Shown piece by piece: positions 84 to 10,472 of a stretch of DNA of 10,472 nt. The first letter of the stretch is position 1. Each line of letters begins with the position of its first letter. Location: assembly GCA_015663215.1 (NCBI GenBank), contig DQSP01000071.1:1-10472 (forward strand), read 5' to 3'. The DNA comes from Sulfurimonas sp. Lineage in GTDB: Bacteria; Campylobacterota; Campylobacteria; Campylobacterales; Sulfurimonadaceae. The notes beneath the pieces are model-generated. The model did not search any database and had not been told where the DNA came from. It was given only the letters and a program-made list of their open reading frames with translations. Position numbers and translations under genes: made by a program.

Positions 84-1871
84 CTAAGACGAACAGCTAA
101 TATGAGATACTCCCGCAACATTAAAGAGCTCAGAGGGTTTTAGCTTATAGTATTTTTCCTCGACATTTTTTGACTGTTCATCATATGGTGCAGTCATGAC
201 CTTTTGCAACTCTTTTACTGATAAGTACTCTCCTTGCTCTGCCCTTTTATAAGCAGGCACAAGTAAACATTCTCTTAAAATGTACTTTGGATTAATTCGC
301 TTCATCTTATTTTTGAGTGCTTCTTGTGATTTTAAATCATTAACATCTATGAGTATATGCCACATTTTAAGCCATGTAGACCAACTCTTTAAAGTTGCTT
401 CACTTAGCTCTTTTTTATAAAAGCTTTTTTTGAGTGGAGTGATATCTTCTGGTAGTTCTGAGAGTTCCCTAAAGAAGATAGTATAATCAACTGAAGTTTG
501 TTGCATAAGTTGATGCAGCTCTTTGAGCAGTCCTCCATCTAAAGTTTCAAGTCCTAGCTTATCTGACCACATTTTTTGTAATTTTTCTTGCATTACTTTA
601 GGAAAATCATTTTGAATCTCTTCTAGTTTTGCTAAAGACTCTTTATCTGATGTAAGTAAAGGTGCTAAAGAGATACAAAACCCATTAAAATTCTTTTGAG
701 CTGCTTGTGGTTGGTTGAAAAATGAGAAGTGTTTTCCTCCACCTGTCCAAGGCTGATAGGAGGGGTCAAAATTGTCCATAAAACCAAAAGGACCATAATC
801 AAGGGTAAAACCTCCTGCCGCACAGTTGTCACTGTTAAAGTTTCCTTGGCAGTAGCCAACACGAATCCAGTTTGCTACAAGTGAAGTAAGACGAGATCTA
901 AACTCTTGTGCTAGTAAGAGAATTTTTTCTTCTAAAGGTAATTCTTTATCTATATCATTACTGTATTCACGCTCAACGAGATGCAAAACAATCATCTCTA
1001 ACTCTTTGGTCGCGTTTGGATGTTCACTCTTACGTGCACGACGAGCAAAAAGTTCGAGTTGTCCCACACGAATAAACGAAGGAGCAACCCGTGTCGAGAT
1101 AGCAACAGCTTCTTCTATCATAACTTCAGGGTCTTTTGAGTAGGAGTTGTCTCTAAACCATGGACGTCTCACTTTTTCTAAATTTGAAGTATAGAGAGTT
1201 AATGAACGTGATGTAGGAATGCCAAGTGCATGCATATGCTCTTGAGCTAAAAATTCACGAACACTTGAGCGCAAAACTGCACGACCATCTGCCCCACGAC
1301 AGTATGGCGTTTGACCACCACCTTTGAGTTGCATCTCGATGCGTTTACCCTTAAGAACACCCTCATAAACAGACATAGCACGACCATCACCATAAGCATT
1401 TCCAGTTCCAAAAGGACACTGCTGATAGTACTCAGTGCCATAGATAGAAAGAGCATATCCACATGCCCAACCAAGCTTATTCATAGGCTCTGGTAACTGT
1501 GACATATCTCCTGAAAACATACGAATAAAGTCCGGCGACTCTGCTAGAGCTTCAGCGAAACCAAGTTCCTTAAACAAGGTTTTAGAGTGTGCGATATACT
1601 GTGGCTCTTTAATAGGTGTAGATTTTACGGGAACATAATGTCCACTAAAGACTTCTCGTGGTGAGTAATCAATACCATCTTCAGTGGTGTTTGGATCAGA
1701 GTTAAGTGTGTCCATTAGCGAGTAGTCTACTGTTTTTGCAAGGTCCTCAAGTGTTGTTATGGCTCTGTCAGCTTTTGAGATATAAGGTGCTTTGGAAGAA
1801 GTCTTTAACTTCGAACGGGCACGTTTTAGGTGTTTGTCATATAGCTTTTGAATTTTCGCATTTCTGTTCAT
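84..1871 (-). CDS. selO: Protein adenylyltransferase SelO (YdiU family)
   Basis: SelO has a pseudokinase fold and transfers AMP from ATP to Ser/Thr/Tyr of target proteins; in E. coli it is linked to the oxidative stress response. Family landmarks visible in the 595 residues are GDGRA (161-165), LKGGGQTPY with the nucleotide-binding Lys183, [14 protein letters not shown] (194-207), the catalytic loop NSDN with Asp348/Asn349, and DYGPFGF with metal-binding Asp358. The protein ends in SCSS, so a Cys sits third from the end, where eukaryotic SelO carries selenocysteine. It is longer than E. coli SelO (about 478 aa) and the catalytic loop reads [10 protein letters not shown] where E. coli has AHGVMNTDNM, so this is a divergent clade. 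The ATG has AAGGA seven bases upstream. It is the last gene of the operon, 20 bases after the HAD gene, and has no obvious part in the sugar pathway. Confidence 0.95.
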
Positions 1872-1891: not shown

Positions 1892-2473
1892 CTATTTTAC
1901 TCTAACCTTAACATCAGCAATAGCTAAAATAGCATCATCCCCACCACTATCACCATAGGTATAGATTTTATCATAGTCGTCTAGGTTTAGATGGGCTTGT
2001 ACTCGTCTGAGCTTTTCTTGACCATGACAGTTTTTTGTTTTGAAGTGTCCGGTGAATTTCCCATCTTTAAACGCTAGTTCTGTACAGAGAAGTTCTACCT
2101 TGTGTTTGTTTGCCCATGGCTCTAACCATGAACGTAATGATGCCGATACTATGAGGACTCTATCACCATTTTTTATATGCTCTTGAAACTTCTCATAGAT
2201 GTGCTCTCTTGTAATATCGTTGATTTTTGTTTCGCCATATTTTTGAGCTAGTCTTTTAAATTCATCTTCGTTTATTTTATGAAAGTAAAGTCTAAAGAGT
2301 AGCTCTTTGGCATAAGAGTTGTCCATTAGTTTTGTTTTGTAGAGAAAAAATATGGGGGAGAATATGGCTAATTTGAAGTAGTAAGTTGGTTTTCCTACGG
2401 CAAACTTGATGAACTCTCCAAGAGAGTCCTTTGTTGTGAGTGTCCCATCAAAATCAAAGAGTGCTAGAGTCAC
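1892..2473 (-). CDS. HAD-IB family phosphatase, candidate polyprenyl-phosphoribose 5-phosphatase
   Basis: Haloacid dehalogenase superfamily, subclass IB (SerB-like). Motif I is DFDGTL with nucleophile Asp7 and acid/base Asp9, motif II is VSAS with Ser110, Lys154 is the likely motif III lysine, and motif IV is GDSGGDD with Asp175 and Asp179. Residues about 13-100 form the helical cap; a hydrophobic, basic stretch at about 33-48 could touch the membrane. The start is GTG, overlapping the TGA of the upstream glycosyltransferase by four bases (GTGA); no later start would keep motif I. Family membership is certain and the substrate is inferred: beside UbiA, DprE1 and DprE2 homologues, the missing activity is removal of the 5-phosphate from polyprenyl-phosphoryl-5-phosphoribose. 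M. tuberculosis is thought to use an unrelated PAP2 protein for this step. A general phosphatase such as phosphoserine phosphatase is less likely given the context. Confidence 0.9.
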
Positions 2474-3975
2474 TTGAGTTGCTCATCTTTATAGTATCTA
2501 TCGTTGAAGTAACATTTGCCTTGTGGTAGCCATTTTGGTATGTCATAAAACTTCTTTTGTTGTATATCTAAGTAGTGTGTTTTGTATTTATCGTAATCAA
2601 AACCTTTGCACTCAGCTACATAAAACACAGCATCTTCGACTTTAAATGTATCTATCTTTACATCATCGCAAACATTTGCATATTCACTTATCTTTATCTC
2701 ACGGTTGTTAAAGATATATAAGTCTCTGTCTTTAAGAGTGCGAATATCTACTAGTTTATCATCCATTCGACCAAAAACAGAGTTGCTAAATATCATCGGC
2801 ATATCTTTTTTACAGTAGTAGTTAAACATGGCTGCGTTTGTGTAACCTGTGGAGAAAAGTTTTTTATCTGTGTACTCTTTGTCTAAAATAGTACAAGTCT
2901 CTTTCATATTTGAGCTAAGAACTGCATCCTCGTAGAAGTAACTCGATTTAAAAACAGAGTTAGGTAGTAGATGAAGAGCTGCTAAAACACAAAGTAATAT
3001 AACTATATGTATAGCTGTAAAGATAGCATTGTACTTGAAGAGTTTATGCAGGTACTTCTCATCTAAAAATGCAAAGAGTAAAAATATATAAGGTATAAAG
3101 AGTATAAACCAGTGTATGCCCATTAAGTTTTTAAGTGAAACCATAAAGAATACTACAAACATTACACCGAGTATAAGTGAGACAAGTATAAGTAGCTCAC
3201 TTTTTACAAAGTTTTTTCTACTCTTGTAAAGAAACCAAAATGCCCATGGTGTTACGACATAAACAAGGTTTAAAACAAAGTTTGAAAATGTCTCGAAGTT
3301 ATAGTGACTCTCTGTTCGAGCGAAGAAGTTAAACATGATGTTGTTCCAACAGCAGTTGTAGTTGAAGTAGATGTTTTGGGCTATGGCGAGTAGGACTATT
3401 GGCATGGCTATAAGTAGTGTTTTTATGGCTTTTGTTTTGTACACAGATATGGCAAAAACAAAGAGTGAGAAAAACAAAAACAGAGAGAAGTACTTACTTA
3501 AAAATGCAGCCCCTAAAAAGAGTCCTGCGAGTAGGGCATATTTGATAGTCTGCTCTTTTTTGAGTGAGTAGACAAAGAACTGTGTCCCGAGTGTTCCAAA
3601 AAGAACGAGGGGAATATCGTTTGTAAAAAGTGACATTAAAATATCTACAGGAGAGACTAAAAAGAGTAAAAAAAGTAGGTATGCCTTGTTTTCATCAATA
3701 TAAAGCTGGGCTATTTTATAGATACTAAACGCCACCGTAATAGCCGCCATAAATGAGAAAAGTCTAAAAAATATGATGCTATCATTTACAAAACTCATAA
3801 GCCATATGAGCCACCCAATCATTGGAGGGTGGTCATAGTAACCGCTACTAAGGTGTGTTGCCCACTTTATGAAGTAAGCTTCATCACCTGTGAGTGGTAC
3901 AAGTGCTAGAATGAAGAGCTTACAAAAAAGAACAATCCCGACTATCTTTATCTCTTTTTCGTAGGTTTTTGTCAT
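2470..3975 (-). CDS. GT39/PMT-type integral membrane glycosyltransferase (second copy)
   Basis: GT-C fold polyprenyl-phosphate-sugar-dependent glycosyltransferase, related to ArnT and protein mannosyltransferases, acting on the periplasmic face. The signature first loop is TGDEAY (29-34) followed by YYDHPPMIGW (46-55), with Asp31/Glu32 the expected catalytic/metal acids; a second acidic motif TNDIPLVLF has Asp120. About ten hydrophobic helices span residues 10-345, followed by a soluble C-terminal domain of roughly 150 residues with several cysteines. It differs clearly from the other GT39 gene at the operon head outside these motifs. It starts four bases after the SDR stop, has only a weak Shine-Dalgarno, and overlaps the HAD start by four bases, so it is probably translationally coupled. 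Given the neighbours, the donor is likely a polyprenyl-phosphoryl pentofuranose. The acceptor is unknown. Confidence 0.9.
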   Translation of the reverse strand: MTKTYEKEIKIVGIVLFCKLFILALVPLTGDEAYFIKWATHLSSGYYDHPPMIGWLIWLMSFVNDSIIFFRLFSFMAAITVAFSIYKIAQLYIDENKAYLLFLLFLVSPVDILMSLFTNDIPLVLFGTLGTQFFVYSLKKEQTIKYALLAGLFLGAAFLSKYFSLFLFFSLFVFAISVYKTKAIKTLLIAMPIVLLAIAQNIYFNYNCCWNNIMFNFFARTESHYNFETFSNFVLNLVYVVTPWAFWFLYKSRKNFVKSELLILVSLILGVMFVVFFMVSLKNLMGIHWFILFIPYIFLLFAFLDEKYLHKLFKYNAIFTAIHIVILLCVLAALHLLPNSVFKSSYFYEDAVLSSNMKETCTILDKEYTDKKLFSTGYTNAAMFNYYCKKDMPMIFSNSVFGRMDDKLVDIRTLKDRDLYIFNNREIKISEYANVCDDVKIDTFKVEDAVFYVAECKGFDYDKYKTHYLDIQQKKFYDIPKWLPQGKCYFNDRYYKDEQLK

Positions 3976-3979
3976 AGTT

Positions 3980-4711
3980 TTAGATGCTCAGTTTTTTGAA
4001 GATGAACTCAGGGATAGTTGTGATGATAAGCATGATGTAACGCCATACCCATTTAGTATAAAGAGTATTTTTTCCTGTTTGTTGTGCTTTGAAAATATCT
4101 TCTGCTACTTCACTTGGCTGGGCTGTGAGTTTCTGGGGAAGTACTAATCCTTCTGTCATTTTTGTGTTTACAAACCCGGGTTTAACTGTTAATACTGAAA
4201 CGCCACTCTCAAAGAGTCTATTTCTTAGCCCTGAGAGGTAAGCACTAAACGCAGCTTTTGCACTACCGTAGATATAATTTGTTTTTCTTCCGCGATCTCC
4301 TGCAACAGAACTAACTCCGACTATAAAGCCGCGTTTATCTTCTTCAAAGTCGTTTGCTATTATGTTTAAAAGACTTACGGCTCCTGTGTAGTTTACATTG
4401 ATAGTGTTAAGGGATTCGCTCCACTCTTTTTGAGCCTTGTGTTGTTCTGTCATATACCCTGAAACAACTATAACACCAAAAGGTTTCTCCGCTAGTGAGT
4501 TATATATCTCCTTATGCGTATTAAACGCAGTGATATCAAGTTCTACTAACTCCACTTTTACAGAAGAACGAACTTCTAGGTCTGTTTTAAACTCTTCTAA
4601 CTCAGCTATATCTCTAGCACCAAGGTATAAGTTATAACCATTTTTTGCATAAACACGAGCTGTCTCTTTTGCTATATCACTCTTTGCACCAACTATTAAA
4701 ACATAACTCAT
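3980..4711 (-). CDS. dprE2: DprE2-like SDR: decaprenylphospho-2-keto-ribose (erythro-pentofuranosid-2-ulose) reductase
   Basis: Short-chain dehydrogenase predicted to reduce the 2-keto intermediate made by DprE1 to the arabino configuration with NAD(P)H. The N-terminal nucleotide loop is VGAKSDIA (7-14), as in DprE2 proteins, which use a variant of TGxxxGIG. The catalytic set is Ser135 in VSSVAGDRGR, Tyr148 and Lys152 (YGSAK), with Asn107 in NVNYTGAVS. PGFVNTKMT (178-186) is the usual loop after the sheet. The C-terminus WRYIMLIITTIPEFIFKKLSI-like helix (223-243) closely resembles, from memory, the hydrophobic amphipathic tail of M. tuberculosis Rv3791, which is unusual for SDRs and suits a membrane lipid substrate. 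The ATG overlaps the DprE1 stop as ATGA and has AAAAGG eight bases upstream. Length of 243 aa is normal. Confidence 0.93.
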   Translation of the reverse strand: MSYVLIVGAKSDIAKETARVYAKNGYNLYLGARDIAELEEFKTDLEVRSSVKVELVELDITAFNTHKEIYNSLAEKPFGVIVVSGYMTEQHKAQKEWSESLNTINVNYTGAVSLLNIIANDFEEDKRGFIVGVSSVAGDRGRKTNYIYGSAKAAFSAYLSGLRNRLFESGVSVLTVKPGFVNTKMTEGLVLPQKLTAQPSEVAEDIFKAQQTGKNTLYTKWVWRYIMLIITTIPEFIFKKLSI

Positions 4712-6000
4712 AATCCCAACCTTTTACTTTGTAGTGAATTAAATTTTTCACTCATATTATTTTCTTTTCTAAACTTTCTAAATGTTTCTATCTTCTCATA
4801 ACCTTGCTCAAAAGTCTCTTTGCTTACACGGACATCCTTTGTGAGGTATATACGACCACCACACTCAACTACTATTGCATCAAGTTCATCTAAGAGCTCA
4901 AATAGTCCCTTTTCTATTTTAAAGTCAAGTGCTAGAGAGTAACCCTCTATAGGAAAAGAGAGATAATTTTCATTTTTCTTGCCGTAGAGTTTGAGTACTG
5001 CAAGAAATGAGCCTTTGCCACTCTGCGAAATTTTATCTAAAATTCTCTCTAAACCATCAAAACTACTCTCTTTTGGTAAAATGAATTGATATTGAGTAAA
5101 ACCATTTTTACCATAAATACGGTTCCAGTTACGAATGCTATCAAGTGGATAAAAAAAGCTATCAAAATGTACTCTCTGCTTGGAAACACCATCTTGAGAT
5201 TTCCAATAATAAAGCCAGTTAAAAGCTTTTACACTTAGAGTATTGAGGGCAAAAGATGGAAAGTTAAAAGGGATGTTGAGTTTTGACTTTGGCTTGTACC
5301 TAAGATCTCCATCATCTGCAAACTCACCAACCATAAGTAGAGACTTTCCTATATTCTCATCTTTTGCGAGGCAGTCTACCCATGCCACACTATATGGTAG
5401 GTGTTTATACTCTTCAAACGCTGCAAAAGTCTCTTTAAGATTTCTTGTTTTTATAGTGGTTTGATTTATGAACTGTGAGTTTATTTTTTTAAGTGATAGT
5501 TTTGCTGTGAGGATGACTCCTGTGAGACCCATCCCTCCACAAGTAGCAAGAAAAAGCTCTTCATCTTTTTTAACAGTGACAATTTTTCCATCTGCTAACA
5601 TAAGAGTAAACTCTTGGACACATTCACTAAAGCAACCTTCTATATGGTGGTTTTTACCATGAATGTCTGAGGCGATAGCACCGCCTACTGTAATGAGTTT
5701 TGTTCCAGGTGTGATTTTTAAAAACCATCCGTGTTTGACTACTCCCTCTAGTATCTCAGAGAGTAAAACACCTGCTTGAACCTCTAATATACCATTAGTT
5801 ACATCAAAGTCTAAGAAGTAGTCATAGGGTTTTGTATGGACTAACGTGTCAGCTAGCGCACTATCTCCATAACTTCGACCATTTCCATAAGCTACTAACT
5901 CATCAGCCGTGTCAAGTTTCTCTTGAAGCTCTTTTTCACTACTAAATTTAATAACTTCATTTTCAACAAGAGGGTACATTCCCCAGCTTTGTAAACTCAA
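4708..6000 (-). CDS. dprE1: DprE1-like FAD oxidoreductase: decaprenylphosphoryl-ribose 2'-oxidase
   Basis: VAO-family flavoenzyme predicted to oxidise the 2'-OH of polyprenyl-phosphoryl-ribose, the first half of its epimerisation to arabinose. FAD-binding motifs are GNGRSYGDSAL (39-49) and PGTKLITVGGAIASDIHGKNHH in two parts (98-119), with His114 and Lys116 matching His132/Lys134 of M. tuberculosis DprE1. SVAWVD (204-209), QYQFILP (303-309), SFPIEGY (348-354) and LTKD with Lys388 (matching Lys418) all align. At the position of Cys387, the target of covalent benzothiazinones, this protein has Ala357. Length is 430 aa against 461. The start is TTG: it has AAGGA seven bases upstream and keeps the N-terminal SWG motif; the next ATG (codon 8) would lose it. 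It follows gtrA by three bases and overlaps the SDR start by four. Confidence 0.95.
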   Translation of the reverse strand: MSLQSWGMYPLVENEVIKFSSEKELQEKLDTADELVAYGNGRSYGDSALADTLVHTKPYDYFLDFDVTNGILEVQAGVLLSEILEGVVKHGWFLKITPGTKLITVGGAIASDIHGKNHHIEGCFSECVQEFTLMLADGKIVTVKKDEELFLATCGGMGLTGVILTAKLSLKKINSQFINQTTIKTRNLKETFAAFEEYKHLPYSVAWVDCLAKDENIGKSLLMVGEFADDGDLRYKPKSKLNIPFNFPSFALNTLSVKAFNWLYYWKSQDGVSKQRVHFDSFFYPLDSIRNWNRIYGKNGFTQYQFILPKESSFDGLERILDKISQSGKGSFLAVLKLYGKKNENYLSFPIEGYSLALDFKIEKGLFELLDELDAIVVECGGRIYLTKDVRVSKETFEQGYEKIETFRKFRKENNMSEKFNSLQSKRLGL

Positions 6001-6003
6001 ACT

Positions 6004-6393
6004 TTAGTCCTTAAAAACAAATTTTTTATCTAAATTATACTTGATTACATAACCTATACTTAAGCCAATTACAGCACCTAAATACTTCGCATTTTCATCT
6101 GCAAAAGCATAATCAAAGCCAGTCTCAAAACCCCAAAAAATAAAGGTCGTAAAAACTCCCATGAGAGAGTAAAGTAAAAACTTCTTGCCATTATCTTTAG
6201 CACCTGAAGTTTCATGGAAAAAAATGTACTTTTTATCTAAGATATATTTTAATACTAAACCAGCTAATGTCCCGATAAACATAGCGAGATAAAGAGATAA
6301 AAAACCACTATAAACAAAAAAGCTCAGCCACTGAAAAAAAAGATTTACTATGGTTGATATAATAGCAAAAATGATGTAACGAATGGCTATCAT
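6004..6393 (-). CDS. GtrA-family membrane protein, candidate lipid-linked pentose flippase
   Basis: Small four-helix inner-membrane protein of the GtrA family, whose members are proposed to move polyprenyl-phosphate-linked sugars across the membrane or assist their transferases. Two family signatures are visible, one after each helix pair: KYILDKKYIF and IKYNLDKKFVF, the second almost at the C-terminus. I chose the ATG at 6393, giving 129 aa: it overlaps the UbiA stop as ATGA, the same coupling seen elsewhere in this operon, and the hydrophobic helix begins at once. The longer reading from 6429 (141 aa) overlaps UbiA by 40 bases, has no Shine-Dalgarno and adds a polar stretch unlike the family. 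It lies directly before dprE1 and dprE2, as the GtrA-type Rv3789 does in M. tuberculosis, where it was proposed to reorient decaprenyl-phospho-arabinose. Flippase activity here is inferred. Confidence 0.9.
   Translation of the reverse strand: MIAIRYIIFAIISTIVNLFFQWLSFFVYSGFLSLYLAMFIGTLAGLVLKYILDKKYIFFHETSGAKDNGKKFLLYSLMGVFTTFIFWGFETGFDYAFADENAKYLGAVIGLSIGYVIKYNLDKKFVFKD
6008..6012 (-). promoter_or_regulatory. Ribosome binding site that decides the TTG start of dprE1
   Basis: AAGGA on the minus strand ends seven bases before the TTG at 6000-5998. It lies within the last codons of gtrA. Its spacing is ideal for the TTG and too long (28 bases) for the next in-frame ATG, so the TTG start is preferred. 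Confidence 0.7.
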
Positions 6394-7253
6394 ATAAACT
6401 TTACTATCCCTACAAAACTGATAAGCCATAAAATAAGAGTGATTTTAATGAAAGTATCTTTGAGGACTATTTTACTAGGGCTACCACTTTGCTGTTCTAC
6501 AAAAGTTATCTGCATATAACGAAGGATGGCGAGGATGACGAATATAGTTGTGAGGTAGAGATACTCACTCCCTATGCGAGCTATGACTTCAGGTGAGACA
6601 GTGTACTGTAAGTAACTCACTATCACAACTCCACTCATAAGTACCATAGCCGCGTTTACGAACTCTAGGTTATAGCCATCTATGTTTTTTCGTGTCTCTT
6701 TACCTTCAAGGGAGAGCAGTACATCATCACGGCGTTTAGCAAGTGCTAAGAAAATAGCAAGTAAAAAAGTAATGATGATGATCCACATTGAAAGAGGTGT
6801 ATCTGTTACCTGTGCCCCTGCAAATAAACGCAGCACAAAACCCGTAGCAATGATGAAAATGTCAACAATGGCAATGTGTTTGAGTCGGTAAGAGTATAAG
6901 ATATTTAGCACAAAATACATAACTAATACAGCGAAAAGTTCATGTGAAAAGAGAAATGTTGCCACTAAAGTAGTTGATGAAAGCCCTAAAAAAAGAAAGT
7001 TCGCAGTTGTTAAAGAGATAGCACCTGAAGCGAGAGGACGGTTCTTCTTTGTGGGGTGTTTTTTGTCTTCTTCTATGTCCATGAAATCGTTCAAAACATA
7101 TATGCTACTAGCTAATAGAGAGAAAAGTACAAACGCAACAGTGGCGTTTAAAACACTCTCTTGATTAAAGTTAAACGCGAAGATAAGTGGTGCAAATATG
7201 AAGAGATTTTTTACATACTGGTGTGGGCGTAGAAGCATTAGTAAGTTATTCAT
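6390..7253 (-). CDS. UbiA-family prenyltransferase, decaprenyl-phosphate phosphoribosyltransferase-like
   Basis: Polytopic UbiA-superfamily enzyme predicted to transfer 5-phosphoribose from PRPP to a polyprenyl phosphate on the cytoplasmic side, the committed step to lipid-linked ribose and arabinose. The first Asp-rich motif is NDFMDIEEDKKHPTKKNRP (55-73), containing the DxxxD metal site followed by HPTKxxRP, which is characteristic of the Rv3806c/phosphoribosyltransferase branch and not of quinone UbiA or heme-O synthase. The second motif is YSYRLKHIAIVD (120-131), followed by a helix ending LRLFAGA, and a cytosolic KRRDD/KNIDGYN loop (173-194). There are about eight or nine hydrophobic helices, and 287 aa is typical. 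The ATG overlaps the upstream glycosyltransferase stop as ATGA, with a weak GAG ribosome binding site. The presence of DprE1 and DprE2 homologues downstream supports the substrate assignment. Confidence 0.92.
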   Translation of the reverse strand: MNNLLMLLRPHQYVKNLFIFAPLIFAFNFNQESVLNATVAFVLFSLLASSIYVLNDFMDIEEDKKHPTKKNRPLASGAISLTTANFLFLGLSSTTLVATFLFSHELFAVLVMYFVLNILYSYRLKHIAIVDIFIIATGFVLRLFAGAQVTDTPLSMWIIIITFLLAIFLALAKRRDDVLLSLEGKETRKNIDGYNLEFVNAAMVLMSGVVIVSYLQYTVSPEVIARIGSEYLYLTTIFVILAILRYMQITFVEQQSGSPSKIVLKDTFIKITLILWLISFVGIVKFI

Positions 7254-8653
7254 TTTTTCTCAATTTGTTTTGGATTAGAGACTCTATAGGTGTAAAATGT
7301 ACGTTTATTACATACCTTATAAGTGTCTATGAGTTCTACATTTTCGTAGTATTTGCGGAGCTCTGCCTCGCGTTTGTCATTTCTACAAAGAACTAAACCG
7401 TTTTGATGCCAAGTGTTTTCATCTCTAACCATATCGTAGTAAGAGTAGCGTGAGTCTATGGCAACATCAGTGTCAGGGTGGTCTGGAAGATAAAACTTTA
7501 TGTATGCGGCAGTTGTTAAGTGTGCCCCATAAAACTTATCTCCCTCTTGTGCATATGTGTACATTCTAGCTACTATATCTTCAGTTTTATACATAAAACG
7601 CTGGAGTTCTGGTAGGTGAGTGATAAGTGCAGTTCTGATTAAAAGAGTGAAAAATATCGCAATAGATAAACCAATAGCAAAACTCTTTTTAAGCTCATAT
7701 TTTTTTATGATGATAGAAAGTAAAATAGCCCCACCAATGTATGCGGGGGCTGAGTAGCTCGGTGCCATACTCACATAAAAGCTTTTGTAGAGAAAAAAGA
7801 GCAGAATAACAACAACACTCAGAGCAATAAAGTAGAGTTTTTCATCTTTAATAAAGAGCTTCTCTTTGATGAGATAGTAAAAAAGTATCCATGCAAAAAC
7901 AGGAGTAAAAACACCAAATTGCGAAGAGACAAACTCTAAAATAAGCCAAGGCTGTATGGTGAAAGAGTCACTAGAACCATGGTCTATTTGAAAAAGAAAA
8001 CTGATCCATTCGTGTTCATAGTTCCAGTAGAGCATAGGAGCGACTACGAGAATAGCGATAATTGTAGTGAGATAAAGCTTGGGGTTTAAAAGTAAGTCTC
8101 TGCGTTTAGTAAGTATAAAGATGATTAAACTCAGTGGAAGCATGATAGCCGAATATTTACTAATCATCATCGCACCTAAAAAAATACCTGTTAAAATAAA
8201 GTCAAGAAGTTTACCCTCAAATATAGCCCTGCAACTATAATAAAGTGAGAGTGTCCAAAAAAGAATAAGCGGTGCATCAGGTGTCGCAAAAATATACCCA
8301 GCATGTGTTAAAAGAACAGAGGAGATGATGACTACTGCGTTTAGAGCAGTTTTTTCATCGCTTATAAGTGCTGTAAGTTTGTAAACATACAGTGAAGAGA
8401 TACTCATAGCGATAACAGGAACAAGCCGTATACCCCACTCACTTTCAGAGATAAAGTTACTAAAGTAGATAAGATAAGCTATCATGGGAGGATGGTCAAA
8501 ATAGCTCAATTGTAAGTCATGACTCCACATCCAGTAGTAAGCTTCATCTCCATGTAGTGGTAAGATTCCATTATAAAGTGTTGCAAAAATAGCTAGAATT
8601 AAAATGAGTAAATAAGCACTTTTTTTCGGTGTTTTATAAAATGTATCTAGCAT
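7250..8653 (-). CDS. GT39/PMT-type integral membrane glycosyltransferase (operon head)
   Basis: GT-C glycosyltransferase of the ArnT/PMT_2 type, expected to use a polyprenyl-phosphoryl sugar at the periplasmic face. The first periplasmic loop has HGDEAYYWMW (34-43) and YFDHPPMIAY (51-60), with Asp36/Glu37 as catalytic/metal acids, and ATPDAPLILF (123-132) carries the second conserved Asp126. Around ten hydrophobic helices run to about residue 350; the last 110 residues form a soluble domain. Length of 467 aa is normal for bacterial GT39/GT83-like enzymes. It is the first gene of the operon: TATAAT lies about 32 bases upstream and AGGA about 12 bases before the ATG. Its stop overlaps the UbiA start by four bases. 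With no arn genes nearby, L-Ara4N transfer to lipid A is not supported; a pentofuranose donor made by the downstream genes is the simplest reading, and the acceptor is unknown. Confidence 0.9.
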   Translation of the reverse strand: MLDTFYKTPKKSAYLLILILAIFATLYNGILPLHGDEAYYWMWSHDLQLSYFDHPPMIAYLIYFSNFISESEWGIRLVPVIAMSISSLYVYKLTALISDEKTALNAVVIISSVLLTHAGYIFATPDAPLILFWTLSLYYSCRAIFEGKLLDFILTGIFLGAMMISKYSAIMLPLSLIIFILTKRRDLLLNPKLYLTTIIAILVVAPMLYWNYEHEWISFLFQIDHGSSDSFTIQPWLILEFVSSQFGVFTPVFAWILFYYLIKEKLFIKDEKLYFIALSVVVILLFFLYKSFYVSMAPSYSAPAYIGGAILLSIIIKKYELKKSFAIGLSIAIFFTLLIRTALITHLPELQRFMYKTEDIVARMYTYAQEGDKFYGAHLTTAAYIKFYLPDHPDTDVAIDSRYSYYDMVRDENTWHQNGLVLCRNDKREAELRKYYENVELIDTYKVCNKRTFYTYRVSNPKQIEKK

Positions 8654-8763: not shown

Positions 8764-10472
8764 ATGCAAAATAGCCTCTCTTTTTTACTCAAACAGTTTT
8801 TTCTTTTTTTCTTTTTTATAGAAGTTTTTCGAACGATTTTTGTAGTTTATTACTGGGATAAACTTCAAGTCGTAGCCACACCCTTCAAAGAGACTGCTTT
8901 AGCATATATAAATGCAGTTAGTTTAGATGTAGCGACTGCTTCGATTCTTATAGTTATTCCGTGGGTACTACTTAATATAAACACACTTTTTAAGTCTACA
9001 ATCATTAAAGTCATTCTCTTTATTTATACCTTTGGTGTTATCATTTTTTCTACATTTATTTATATCGCGGAACTTGGTATATATAATGAATGGGAAGAAA
9101 AACCTACATTTAAAATTTTTAACTATTTAAAACACCCCGATGAGGCAATAGTCTCAAATCCGATAATTCTTACAATAATTCTTACGATAATCTTAGTGAG
9201 TGTTTTAGCACTTTTTTACACTCTAACAAAAAAACTTTTTGCTACTTATGATGTAAAAGCAAAACGAAACTATAAAGTAGTAATTTTTTCTCTTTTTGTT
9301 CTACCAATTATTATATTTCTCGGAGCACGTGGTGGTTGGGCGGAAATACCCATCTCTCAAAGTACGGTTTATTTCTCTAAGCATAAGGTTTATAATGACA
9401 TCGCTATAAGTACGGTGTATAACTTTATACATAGTATTACAGAAAATCAGTCTATTATAAATGGAGAAAACCCATATAAAATAACTTTAGATGATGAAAA
9501 AAGAGAGAAAATCTTAGCAGAGTTTATGGCAACACCAAAAGGATGTGAGAGAGAGTCAATCCTTACAACAGATAGACCAAATATAGTTTTGGTTATATGG
9601 GAATCTCTCTCAGGTGATTTTATAAAAAATGATAAATACAGAGCAGTTATACCAAACATAATGAAGATGTCTAAAAAAGGAATTTTATTTACTCAAACTT
9701 ATGCAAGTTCTACACTTTCTCACGAAGGACTACCTTCTATTTTCTCGGGTTGGCCAGCAATTGCAGGTACTTATGTGACAAATCTTCCTTCAAAATTTTA
9801 TAAGATGCCATTTTTAACACAAAAACTTAAAGCAAATGGTTATGAAACTGCTTTTTACTTTGGTGGACAACTCCGGTATGGAAACCTTACATCTTACATG
9901 TATGGAAATGGCTTTGATACTATAGAGGAGCATAGTGACATAGAGATGGACTCTTCTAAAGCAGGAGTTTTAGGCTATCACGATGGATATATGCTTGAGT
10001 ACTTAAAAGATAAGTCATCACAAATGAAAGAACCATTTTTTAGCTCACTCTTTACTGTAAGTTCACACTCTCCTTACGATCAACCTATGGAAGATGTTAT
10101 AGAGTGGGGTGATGGTGATAAGGGATACTTAAACTCTATATACTATACAGATAAGTCTATTGGTGAGTTTATTCAAAATGCAAAAAAAGAATCATGGTAT
10201 GAAAATACACTCTTTATTTTTGTTGCAGATCATTCACACCATACACCACTAGCTTGGAGCAGAGCAGATAAAAGATGGCACCATATTCCTATGCTTTTTT
10301 ATGGTGAAGTGATTAAAAAAGAGTATCGTGGTAAAAGCATAGACAAAATAGTTTCTCAAAGAGATATAGCAGCAACACTACTCTCACAGTTAAATATTTC
10401 TCACAGTGAATTTGAGTGGAGCAGAGATGTTTTTTGTAACGAGTATAAGGAAAATGCTTATATAATGAATAA
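8764..10472 (+). CDS. LTA-synthase-like / sulfatase-fold membrane transferase (3' end cut by window)
   Basis: Membrane-anchored alkaline-phosphatase-fold enzyme of the LtaS/phosphoglycerol-transferase group, which moves phosphoglycerol or phosphoethanolamine from lipids to periplasmic acceptors. The frame is open for 569 codons from ATG 8764 to the window end, so the C-terminus is missing. Five hydrophobic helices (about 6-31, 52-74, 80-104, 134-157, 170-188) precede a periplasmic sulfatase domain from about residue 272. Likely metal and active-site residues are Glu280 (VIWESLSG), the nucleophile region STLSHEGLPSIFSG (316-329), His435 (SSHSPY), Asp489/His490 (VADHSHH) and His506/His507 (RWHHIP). 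Aligning on the following Gly puts Ser319 at the usual Thr nucleophile, though Thr317 is close. The gene is divergent from the sugar operon. The donor group and acceptor are not shown by the sequence; phosphoethanolamine transfer or glucan phosphoglycerol transfer are both possible. Confidence 0.88.
   Translation, partial: MQNSLSFLLKQFFLFFFFIEVFRTIFVVYYWDKLQVVATPFKETALAYINAVSLDVATASILIVIPWVLLNINTLFKSTIIKVILFIYTFGVIIFSTFIYIAELGIYNEWEEKPTFKIFNYLKHPDEAIVSNPIILTIILTIILVSVLALFYTLTKKLFATYDVKAKRNYKVVIFSLFVLPIIIFLGARGGWAEIPISQSTVYFSKHKVYNDIAISTVYNFIHSITENQSIINGENPYKITLDDEKREKILAEFMATPKGCERESILTTDRPNIVLVIWESLSGDFIKNDKYRAVIPNIMKMSKKGILFTQTYASSTLSHEGLPSIFSGWPAIAGTYVTNLPSKFYKMPFLTQKLKANGYETAFYFGGQLRYGNLTSYMYGNGFDTIEEHSDIEMDSSKAGVLGYHDGYMLEYLKDKSSQMKEPFFSSLFTVSSHSPYDQPMEDVIEWGDGDKGYLNSIYYTDKSIGEFIQNAKKESWYENTLFIFVADHSHHTPLAWSRADKRWHHIPMLFYGEVIKKEYRGKSIDKIVSQRDIAATLLSQLNISHSEFEWSRDVFCNEYKENAYIMN

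Follow-up and report, generated by a model that had tools for sequence, protein, structure and literature searches.

The stretch of DNA analyzed here (the window) is one entire contig of 10,472 nucleotides (DQSP01000071.1) from the 1.70-Mb draft genome of a Sulfurimonas sp. (GCA_015663215.1; 297 contigs, completeness estimate 73.3%). It carries a self-contained gene cassette which, judged by sequence comparison, is likely to add D-arabinofuranose (D-Araf), or at least a pentofuranose epimerized at C2, outside of the cytoplasmic membrane. D-arabinose is a sugar familiar from the cell walls of the tuberculosis bacterium. An earlier note on this DNA had proposed that a lipid-linked D-Araf (or its C2 epimer) is made and decorates a surface molecule. 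The predicted pathway to such a donor, used outside of the cytoplasm, stands, because homology, active-site residues, strict co-occurrence and published Gram-negative precedents agree. The five adjacent genes named in that note (UbiA, GtrA, DprE1, DprE2 and HAD) were verified as intact minus-strand open reading frames (ORFs) inside positions 1892-7253, with correct motifs and coordinates and with matching family models and solved relatives. The inventory had left unnamed two glycosyltransferases of the GT-C type: GTC1, to which the step from donor to product is assigned below, and GTC2. The cassette consists of six genes:

6390..7253, minus strand: UbiA-type polyprenyl-phosphate phosphoribosyltransferase (PPPRS/DPPRS homologue), 287 amino acids, first gene of the cassette (NF008977, 8j8j)
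6004..6393, minus strand: GtrA-family membrane protein, proposed flippase for the lipid-linked pentose, approximately 129 amino acids, ORF open from 6429 (NF037976)
4708..6000, minus strand: DprE1-like FAD oxidase, 430 amino acids, TTG start (NF053785, PDB DprE1)
3980..4711, minus strand: DprE2-like reductase of the short-chain dehydrogenase/reductase (SDR) type, 243 amino acids (21gq_C)
2470..3975, minus strand: GTC1, GT-C protein of the PMT_2 type, proposed pentofuranosyltransferase, 501 amino acids (PF13231)
1892..2473, minus strand: HAD-IB phosphatase, proposed 5'-phosphatase of polyprenyl-phospho-phosphoribose, 193 amino acids, GTG start, last gene of the cassette (TIGR01490)

The order of transcription on the minus strand is GTC2, UbiA, GtrA, DprE1, DprE2, GTC1, HAD and SelO, and an LtaS-like gene diverges on the plus strand. 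As read from the sequence, overlaps of 4 bases join GTC2/UbiA, UbiA/GtrA (with a revised start), DprE1/DprE2 and GTC1/HAD, and gaps of 3, 4 and 20 bases separate GtrA/DprE1, DprE2/GTC1 and HAD/SelO, respectively. The start of GtrA is probably 6393 and not 6429; an equivalent methionine opens the ORFs of most relatives, and the UbiA/GtrA junction then reads ATGA. Adjacency of these genes by chance is untenable, because relatives hold the same gene set.

In the proposed pathway, UbiA would transfer phosphoribose from phosphoribosyl pyrophosphate (PRPP) to a polyprenyl phosphate, probably undecaprenyl phosphate, and HAD would remove the 5'-phosphate from the polyprenyl-phospho-phosphoribose. DprE1 would oxidize C2 and DprE2 would reduce it again to yield the arabino configuration, GtrA may move the lipid-linked sugar to the periplasm and GTC1 would pass the sugar on to an acceptor. 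The identities of the enzymes are assigned by homology and active-site residues, and we infer the chemistry of each step from characterized relatives.

The UbiA protein reaches the curated cut-off of the NF008977 model 'decaprenyl-phosphate phosphoribosyltransferase' (234.2 bits, cut-off 234), and its best match in the PDB is the solved DPPRS 8j8j (E 1.6e-39), named as the M. tuberculosis enzyme in the excerpts of Kelly et al. 2024 (PMC11127046) used here. The NDxxD...HPTKxxRP motif reported in the earlier note is borne out by the sequence, which reads NDFMDIEEDKKHPTKKNRP, and N73, D74, D77, D81, H84 and K87 (8j8j numbering) are each conserved in all 87 sequences compared, the window among them. 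The metal-binding N/D/D/D motif that is characteristic of three-component pentofuranose systems is intact. GtrA matches NF037976 with 170.3 bits (cut-off 50), and this GtrA-family protein stands where the Citrobacter prototype of such systems has a MATE-family flippase; flippases of other families serve in further systems of this kind. The HAD protein scores 114.7 bits against TIGR01490 (cut-off 98.3) and contains the stretches DFDGT and GDSGGDD, which we take to be its HAD motifs.

DprE1 aligns over nearly the full length of the NF053785 model (379.1 bits), and a DprE1 chain in the PDB is its best solved relative (E 4.4e-71). For a comparison of residues, 98 sequences (the window, 17 from relatives and 80 from loci of named genomes) were aligned to this solved chain, presumably the M. 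tuberculosis protein, at the positions that we take to matter for the substrate and FAD pocket. All 98 sequences have the same residue as the solved chain at Y60, G117, T118, H132, K134, H136, H137, W230, Q334, Q336, V365, K367, Y415 and K418, and 97 have it at L363. Positions 228, 385 and 387 differ from the solved mycobacterial enzyme in 98 of 98 sequences and position 314 in 97. The predicted protein thus has the conserved pocket residues of the enzyme type. The residue at position 387 is a cysteine in the solved DprE1 and an alanine in every homologue compared. A different FAD oxidoreductase was considered and rejected: the next family model scores 53.2 bits, and the remaining matches to the DprE1 model across the 60 genomes described below reach at most 62 bits. 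In the DprE1 tree, the window's protein stands among those of drafts from the Campylobacterota whose titles are Sulfurospirillum, Aliarcobacter, Sulfurimonas and Sulfurovum. The closest solved relative of DprE2 is 21gq_C, a 'decaprenylphosphoryl-2-keto-beta-D-erythro-pentose reductase' (E 5.8e-25), whose YGSTK aligns with YGSAK of the window's protein. DprE2 also matches NF005489, an unnamed SDR model, with 352.2 bits (cut-off 267).

The distribution of the genes was analyzed in 60 genomes, namely that of the window and those of 59 relatives (37 of the 60 belong to one genus, the window's included, and 23 to the same order; individual genomes carry G numbers and loci L numbers). Thresholds were more than 360 bits for DprE1, E ≤ 1e-15 for UbiA, more than 500 bits for GTC1 and GTC2 and more than 900 bits for the LtaS-like protein. 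A strong DprE1 match was detected in 17 of the 60 genomes. UbiA has an identical distribution, with a match in each of these 17 and no match in the remaining 43. GTC1 is present in 11 genomes, which are precisely the DprE1 carriers among the 37 of the genus, and it adjoins DprE2 in all 10 same-genus relatives that carry both. Within the 17 stretches read from 16 relatives (G009 gives two), GtrA adjoins DprE1 without exception, and UbiA and DprE2 were each found in 16; UbiA is missing in G054 and DprE2 in G056, both at contig ends. GTC2 was detected in nine genomes, four of them without DprE1. The LtaS-like orthologue is confined to five genomes, exactly those with the cassette beside GTC2, and the next relative scores 175.7 bits. 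From these patterns of co-occurrence it follows that GTC1 belongs with the pathway, that GTC2 probably does not and that the LtaS-like gene is tied to one arrangement.

Both GT-C proteins match PMT/PMT_2 models only, in Pfam (PF13231, 74.4 bits for GTC1, which lies between DprE2 and HAD, and 117.8 bits for GTC2), and a comparison with hhalign shows the two families to be homologous (probability 100, E 7e-44). When the PDB was searched with a profile built from 15 GTC2-like sequences, ArnT was the sole match (5EZM, E 0.0028). With its PMT_2 match and its strict co-occurrence within the genus, GTC1 behaves as the dedicated GT-C of a three-component system, and co-occurrence singles it out as the candidate transferase; it is probably the enzyme that links the donor to the product. 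GTC2 was rejected for this role, as four genomes of the genus have an orthologue above 500 bits but no DprE1, and it is probably part of an older cluster and not of the pentose pathway.

Several observations weigh against this assignment of functions. Both epimerase components fall below their NCBI equivalog cut-offs (DprE1 with 379.1 of 500 bits for NF053785, DprE2 with 173 of 250 bits for NF053786), which is why they are called 'DprE1-like' and 'DprE2-like' and why the substrate or product could differ. The cut-off of 500 was reached in none of the 60 genomes and in one of 14 control genomes. The window's HAD protein resembles the HAD part of fused HAD-UbiA proteins with a best E of 4.7e-5 (10 long UbiA ORFs searched). 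As this similarity is weak at best, the fused proteins were dropped as proof, and the role of HAD rests on its family and position. GTC1 is without a characterized relative, and a profile of 13 GTC1 sequences found no GT-C protein in the PDB, ArnT included. Moreover, GTC1 is not a general component, because the six DprE1 genomes of other families have none (no match above 51 bits). Of the best 80 named loci, 11 lack UbiA inside 6 kb.

The history of the locus could be followed through the genes that flank the cassette in the window:

7250..8653, minus strand: GTC2, second GT-C protein of the PMT_2 type, 467 amino acids, first gene of the operon (PF13231)
8764..10470, plus strand: LtaS/OpgB-like membrane protein of the sulfatase family, possibly a phosphoglycerol-type transferase, running off the window (PF00884); its start at approximately 8764 was set from the ORFs of relatives
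84..1871, minus strand: SelO (YdiU) protein adenylyltransferase, a bystander 20 bases downstream of HAD (PF02696)

GTC2 belongs to an older conserved cluster (loci L132-L139) with LPG_synthase_TM, GT9 (heptosyltransferase-like), a second GT-C, PAP2 and, in several genomes, a metallophosphatase; in several of its genomes, the cluster lies near GlmU and motA-motB-fliP. Genes of the cluster were named by Pfam/NCBIfam scans of the G010 and G009 copies and by BLAST likeness in the remaining genomes. Four genomes, all without DprE1 (G014, G016, G025 and G030), have empty sites, where GTC2 is followed after approximately 50-60 bases by LPG_synthase_TM, GT9 and the second GT-C. The three of these with a longer stretch continue with PAP2 and then GlmU, with the metallophosphatase in between in G016 and G025, and MotA-MotB-FliP-TrmA lies divergently on the other side of GTC2 in the empty-site genomes. 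In the filled sites of G009 and G028, GTC2 is separated from LPG_synthase_TM by the UbiA-to-HAD cassette and from MotA by the LtaS-like gene. The outgroup G052, from another family, has GTC2, LPG_synthase_TM, GT9, the second GT-C and PAP2 uninterrupted. Approximately 13 kb separate the cassette from the rest of the cluster in G010, and the two are on different contigs in the window's genome and G029.

Eleven flanking proteins were used for a tree rooted on the distant G052; every protein was drawn from those genomes in which it is present, and the window contributed five. The window forms a clade with G010, G029, G009 and G028 (support 100), and G014 is the next to branch off (100), followed by G016 (61) and by G025 with G030. 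The alternative to a single gain would be three losses or more on this tree, and the gain is favored as the simpler history. Most simply, the UbiA-to-HAD cassette was inserted once between GTC2 and the flippase-like gene of the older GT9/GT-C/PAP2 cluster, and the LtaS-like gene was gained on the same branch. The DprE1 gene tree speaks against an entirely simple history in that it sets G028 apart from the other four genomes, at nodes with weak support (34 and 58). A stretch resembling TTTTxGATAAAAT before LPG_synthase_TM, which in our reading is a predicted promoter, recurs in slightly varied form at four empty and two filled sites. Its conservation implies that the cassette seems to join the GTC2 transcript and to leave the next promoter undisturbed. 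Recent transfer could not be recognized by base composition, with 35.6% G+C in the cassette and 35.9% in GTC2. A phage origin was also rejected: none of 32 pattern matches in viral contigs encodes a DprE1 relative, and a PHROGs scan of four window proteins gave one match, UbiA (E 5.1e-5).

The LtaS-like protein matches PF00884 with 143.2 bits, and its solved relatives are VP1736 (E 8.3e-40) and LtaS (E 3.1e-8). In G010 (L044, 14442-18323), FliP and TrmA but no MotA/MotB lie beside the LtaS-like gene and no flagellin match was found, which suggests that the motility genes of this genome are decaying. SelO (PF02696, 245 bits, with an N-terminal DUF2986) directly follows HAD in the window only and is missing from this position in G009, G028, G010 and G029; in G029 it sits just before LPG_synthase_TM, on a different contig from the cassette. 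SelO is a later arrival at its place and stands outside of the pentose system. A gene order of HAD, SelO and older cluster common to the window and G029 was dropped, as a different ORF follows HAD in G029.

The acceptor of the sugar may be the lipooligosaccharide core or lipid A, a weak guess that loses a little weight through the export genes beside one cassette. The genome of G010 (99% complete; its operon proteins are 85-93% identical to those of the window) gave no match for flagellin, STT3 or Wzy_C, and these models are without a match in 5, 13 and 20 of the 60 genomes, respectively. PF04413, which we take to be the Kdo (3-deoxy-D-manno-oct-2-ulosonic acid) transferase type, was found in 16 of the 17 cassette genomes, including G010, with no match in the 79%-complete G029. 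As G010 lacks the three other candidates and the cassette genomes keep PF04413, the lipooligosaccharide core or lipid A is the best guess for the target of GTC1.

A doubtful second candidate would be a protein, in the first place a type IV pilin or pseudopilin, with GTC1 as a TfpW-like arabinosyltransferase similar to that of Pseudomonas paraeruginosa. Pilin arabinosylation is documented in the excerpts of PMC12369383 used here, and N_methyl matches (the pilin-type leader) occur in all 17 cassette genomes. On the other hand, no listed N_methyl match lies within 40 kb of DprE1 on the same contig in these 17 genomes, many of whose contigs are short, and G010 has one N_methyl match only, in a 169-amino-acid frame, which at 24 bits is barely over the cut-off of 21.2. 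An equally doubtful explanation is that the donor serves to modify whatever the older cluster (GTC2, LPG_synthase_TM, GT9, second GT-C, PAP2 and metallophosphatase) makes, and that GTC2 also uses the donor or extends the chain. The insertion at gene boundaries, the ATGA coupling of GTC2 and UbiA and the same-branch gain of the LtaS-like gene are in its favor. However, six same-genus genomes carry the cassette with GTC1 and have no GTC2 or GT9 orthologue (E ≤ 1e-40 for GT9), GTC2 is present in the four genomes without DprE1, and the rest of the cluster is distant in G010 and on another contig in the window's genome and G029. With about the same reserve it can be speculated that the older cluster assembles a glycolipid of the outer membrane, and that the arabinofuranose cassette, coupled to GTC2, and the LtaS-like transferase of the phosphoglycerol type jointly alter this one molecule by adding arabinofuranose and a phosphate substituent. 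If true, this would be a Gram-negative envelope with mycobacterium-like arabinosylation that involves neither O antigen nor pilin or flagellin.

A polysaccharide destined for export, be it capsule, exopolysaccharide or ABC-exported O antigen, appears less probable still. Genes for Poly_export, Wzz/GNVR and CpsB/CapC lie right behind the cassette of G012 (L048, 2537-6452), between it and a dihydroorotate dehydrogenase gene. A second cassette of G009 (L043, 7642-13470) belongs to a locus with a Wzt_C ATP-binding cassette (ABC) transporter and a Bac_transf sugar transferase, and the Citrobacter prototype acts on an ABC-exported O antigen (PMC11127046, in excerpt). This second cassette is nevertheless without GTC1, the other Pfam-scanned same-genus GTC1 cassettes (G005 and G032) adjoin DJ-1/PfpI and dihydroorotate dehydrogenase genes, and no Wzy_C match exists in G010; export genes were not searched genome-wide. 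It is also unlikely, to a slightly greater degree, that the DprE1/DprE2-like pair makes another C2-modified lipid-phosphate sugar, or that ribose is kept, so that the product is not D-Araf. The scores below the curated cut-offs and the four pocket positions that differ from the mycobacterial enzyme would fit this idea. Against it, all other tested pocket positions are invariant apart from L363, DprE1 and PRPP-type UbiA always occur together across the 60 genomes, and DprE1/E2 are tied to Araf glycans in the excerpts of Kelly et al. (PMC11127046). Flagellin, a PglB-type glycan or a WaaL/Wzy-dependent O antigen is very improbable as the general acceptor and was dropped: the window's own genome does have two flagellin matches and one STT3 match, but G010 contradicts the idea unless genes were missed there, G012 is without flagellin, and the only five flagellin-less genomes of the 60 all carry DprE1.

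These five genomes (G010, G012, G038, G041 and G047) form an observation of their own. Flagellin is missing in 5 of 17 DprE1 genomes and in 0 of 43 others (Fisher P = 0.0011), or in 5 of 15 versus 0 of 32 among the 47 genomes that are at least 90% complete (P = 0.002), relatedness and the making of three tests being ignored in both values. STT3 and Wzy_C show no association with DprE1 (P = 0.31 and 0.77). The pattern possibly reflects a link of the cassette to non-motile or attached life, or shared ancestry.

Elsewhere in the genus, the cassettes of G005, G012 and G032 lie between a divergent DJ-1/PfpI gene and the dihydroorotate dehydrogenase gene, and G006 and G021 have the same flanks as judged by first residues. 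In G021 (L047), a 332-amino-acid ORF after HAD begins like a Wzz protein, again by its first residues. The second cassette of G009 has a 649-amino-acid membrane protein before UbiA, at the position that GTC2 has in the window, and its HAD ORF has 138 amino acids only. None of seven large membrane proteins near cassettes (this one and six near named cassettes) gave a Pfam match. The constant part of these loci is the set of donor genes; the membrane proteins close by vary.

A scan of named genomes returned at least 590 matched stretches, of which at least 583 were confirmed and the best 80 of 583 were analyzed. A same-strand DprE2 stands no more than 6 kb away in 76 of these 80 loci. UbiA lies in that range in 69 when both strands are counted and in 61 when the same strand is required. 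GtrA was found in 25, a separate HAD in 44 and either a separate HAD or a long UbiA (HAD-UbiA fusion) in 53; all of these counts are lower bounds, as the sequence on one side is shorter than 3 kb in 14 of the 80 loci. A DLDGT stretch stands at the front of each of the nine long UbiA proteins in the count. The titles of these loci come from many phyla, and DprE1/E2 homologues are reported for the Araf-containing examples examined in the excerpts of PMC11127046; the pathway is therefore less remarkable in a Gram-negative than the earlier note had assumed. A few DprE1 records carry odd titles (L055, L059, L064 and L108). Those titled Desulfamplus, Cyclobacteriaceae and Deltaproteobacteria fall inside a clade that otherwise has Campylobacterota titles or members of this order (support 98), and a distant DprE1 comes from one draft with the title Klebsiella pneumoniae. 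Such records reflect mis-binning or transfer.

A limited literature search found no report of a DprE1, arabinofuranose or pentofuranose system in Campylobacterota. With the window, free-living members of this phylum join the bacteria that probably make lipid-linked arabinofuranose. The predicted chemistry is already known; the acceptor, and an LtaS-like enzyme acting on the same molecule, would be new. The locus also documents with unusual clarity one route of spread, in which a donor-plus-transferase cassette was put intact into an existing operon and the empty site can still be seen in close relatives, and the small related genome of G010, without flagellin, STT3 and Wzy_C matches, narrows the possible acceptors.

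Compared with known systems, the window resembles the mycobacterial decaprenylphosphoryl-arabinose (DPA) pathway (Rv3806c, Rv3807c, DprE1, DprE2 and Rv3789) in its UbiA, DprE1 and DprE2 homologues and in the conserved active-site residues of UbiA and DprE1. It differs in having a HAD phosphatase in place of the Rv3807c type, a PMT_2 GT-C and DprE1 and DprE2 proteins below the cut-offs, so that 'mycobacterial-type', as the pathway had been called, holds for the tested residues but not for the phosphatase and the transferase. No Rv3807c-type phosphatase and no Emb/Aft-type arabinosyltransferase is encoded in the operon, the only part of the genome examined for Emb/Aft. Rv3789 is a GtrA-family protein. 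In the excerpts of PMC11127046, it is called a member of the SMR family, and the HAD phosphatase is described as unrelated to Rv3807c. ArnT (5EZM), the transferase for 4-amino-4-deoxy-L-arabinose (Ara4N), is matched by the profile of the GTC2 family, to which GTC1 is homologous. In contrast, GTC1's own profile falls short of ArnT, and the donor genes linked to GTC1 are predicted to make a pentofuranose and not Ara4N. In P. paraeruginosa PA7/Pa5196 (PSPA7_6245-6251 and TfpW), a gene set including ubiA supplies D-Araf for pilin (PMC12369383, in excerpt), and the window is likened to it by description, with its ubiA-containing D-Araf set and extracytoplasmic GT-C. Unlike there, where the excerpts place TfpW with the pilin gene and away from the donor genes, GTC1 is part of the operon, and no N_methyl match lies near the window's cassette. 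The window also resembles the 'three-component' extracytoplasmic pentofuranose systems with the prototype of Citrobacter youngae O1/O2 (Kelly et al. 2024, PMC11127046), for which the excerpts list a PRPP-type UbiA synthase, a HAD phosphatase, a flippase, a GT-C and an optional epimerase. According to them, the PRPP-dependent UbiA, HAD and GT-C transfer were tested in Citrobacter and the activity of the MATE flippase is putative there too. The window differs from this prototype in its separate HAD and UbiA, its putative GtrA flippase and the PMT_2 match of GTC1. Taken together, the system of the window fits the three-component pentofuranose kind that is already known in other Gram-negative bacteria.

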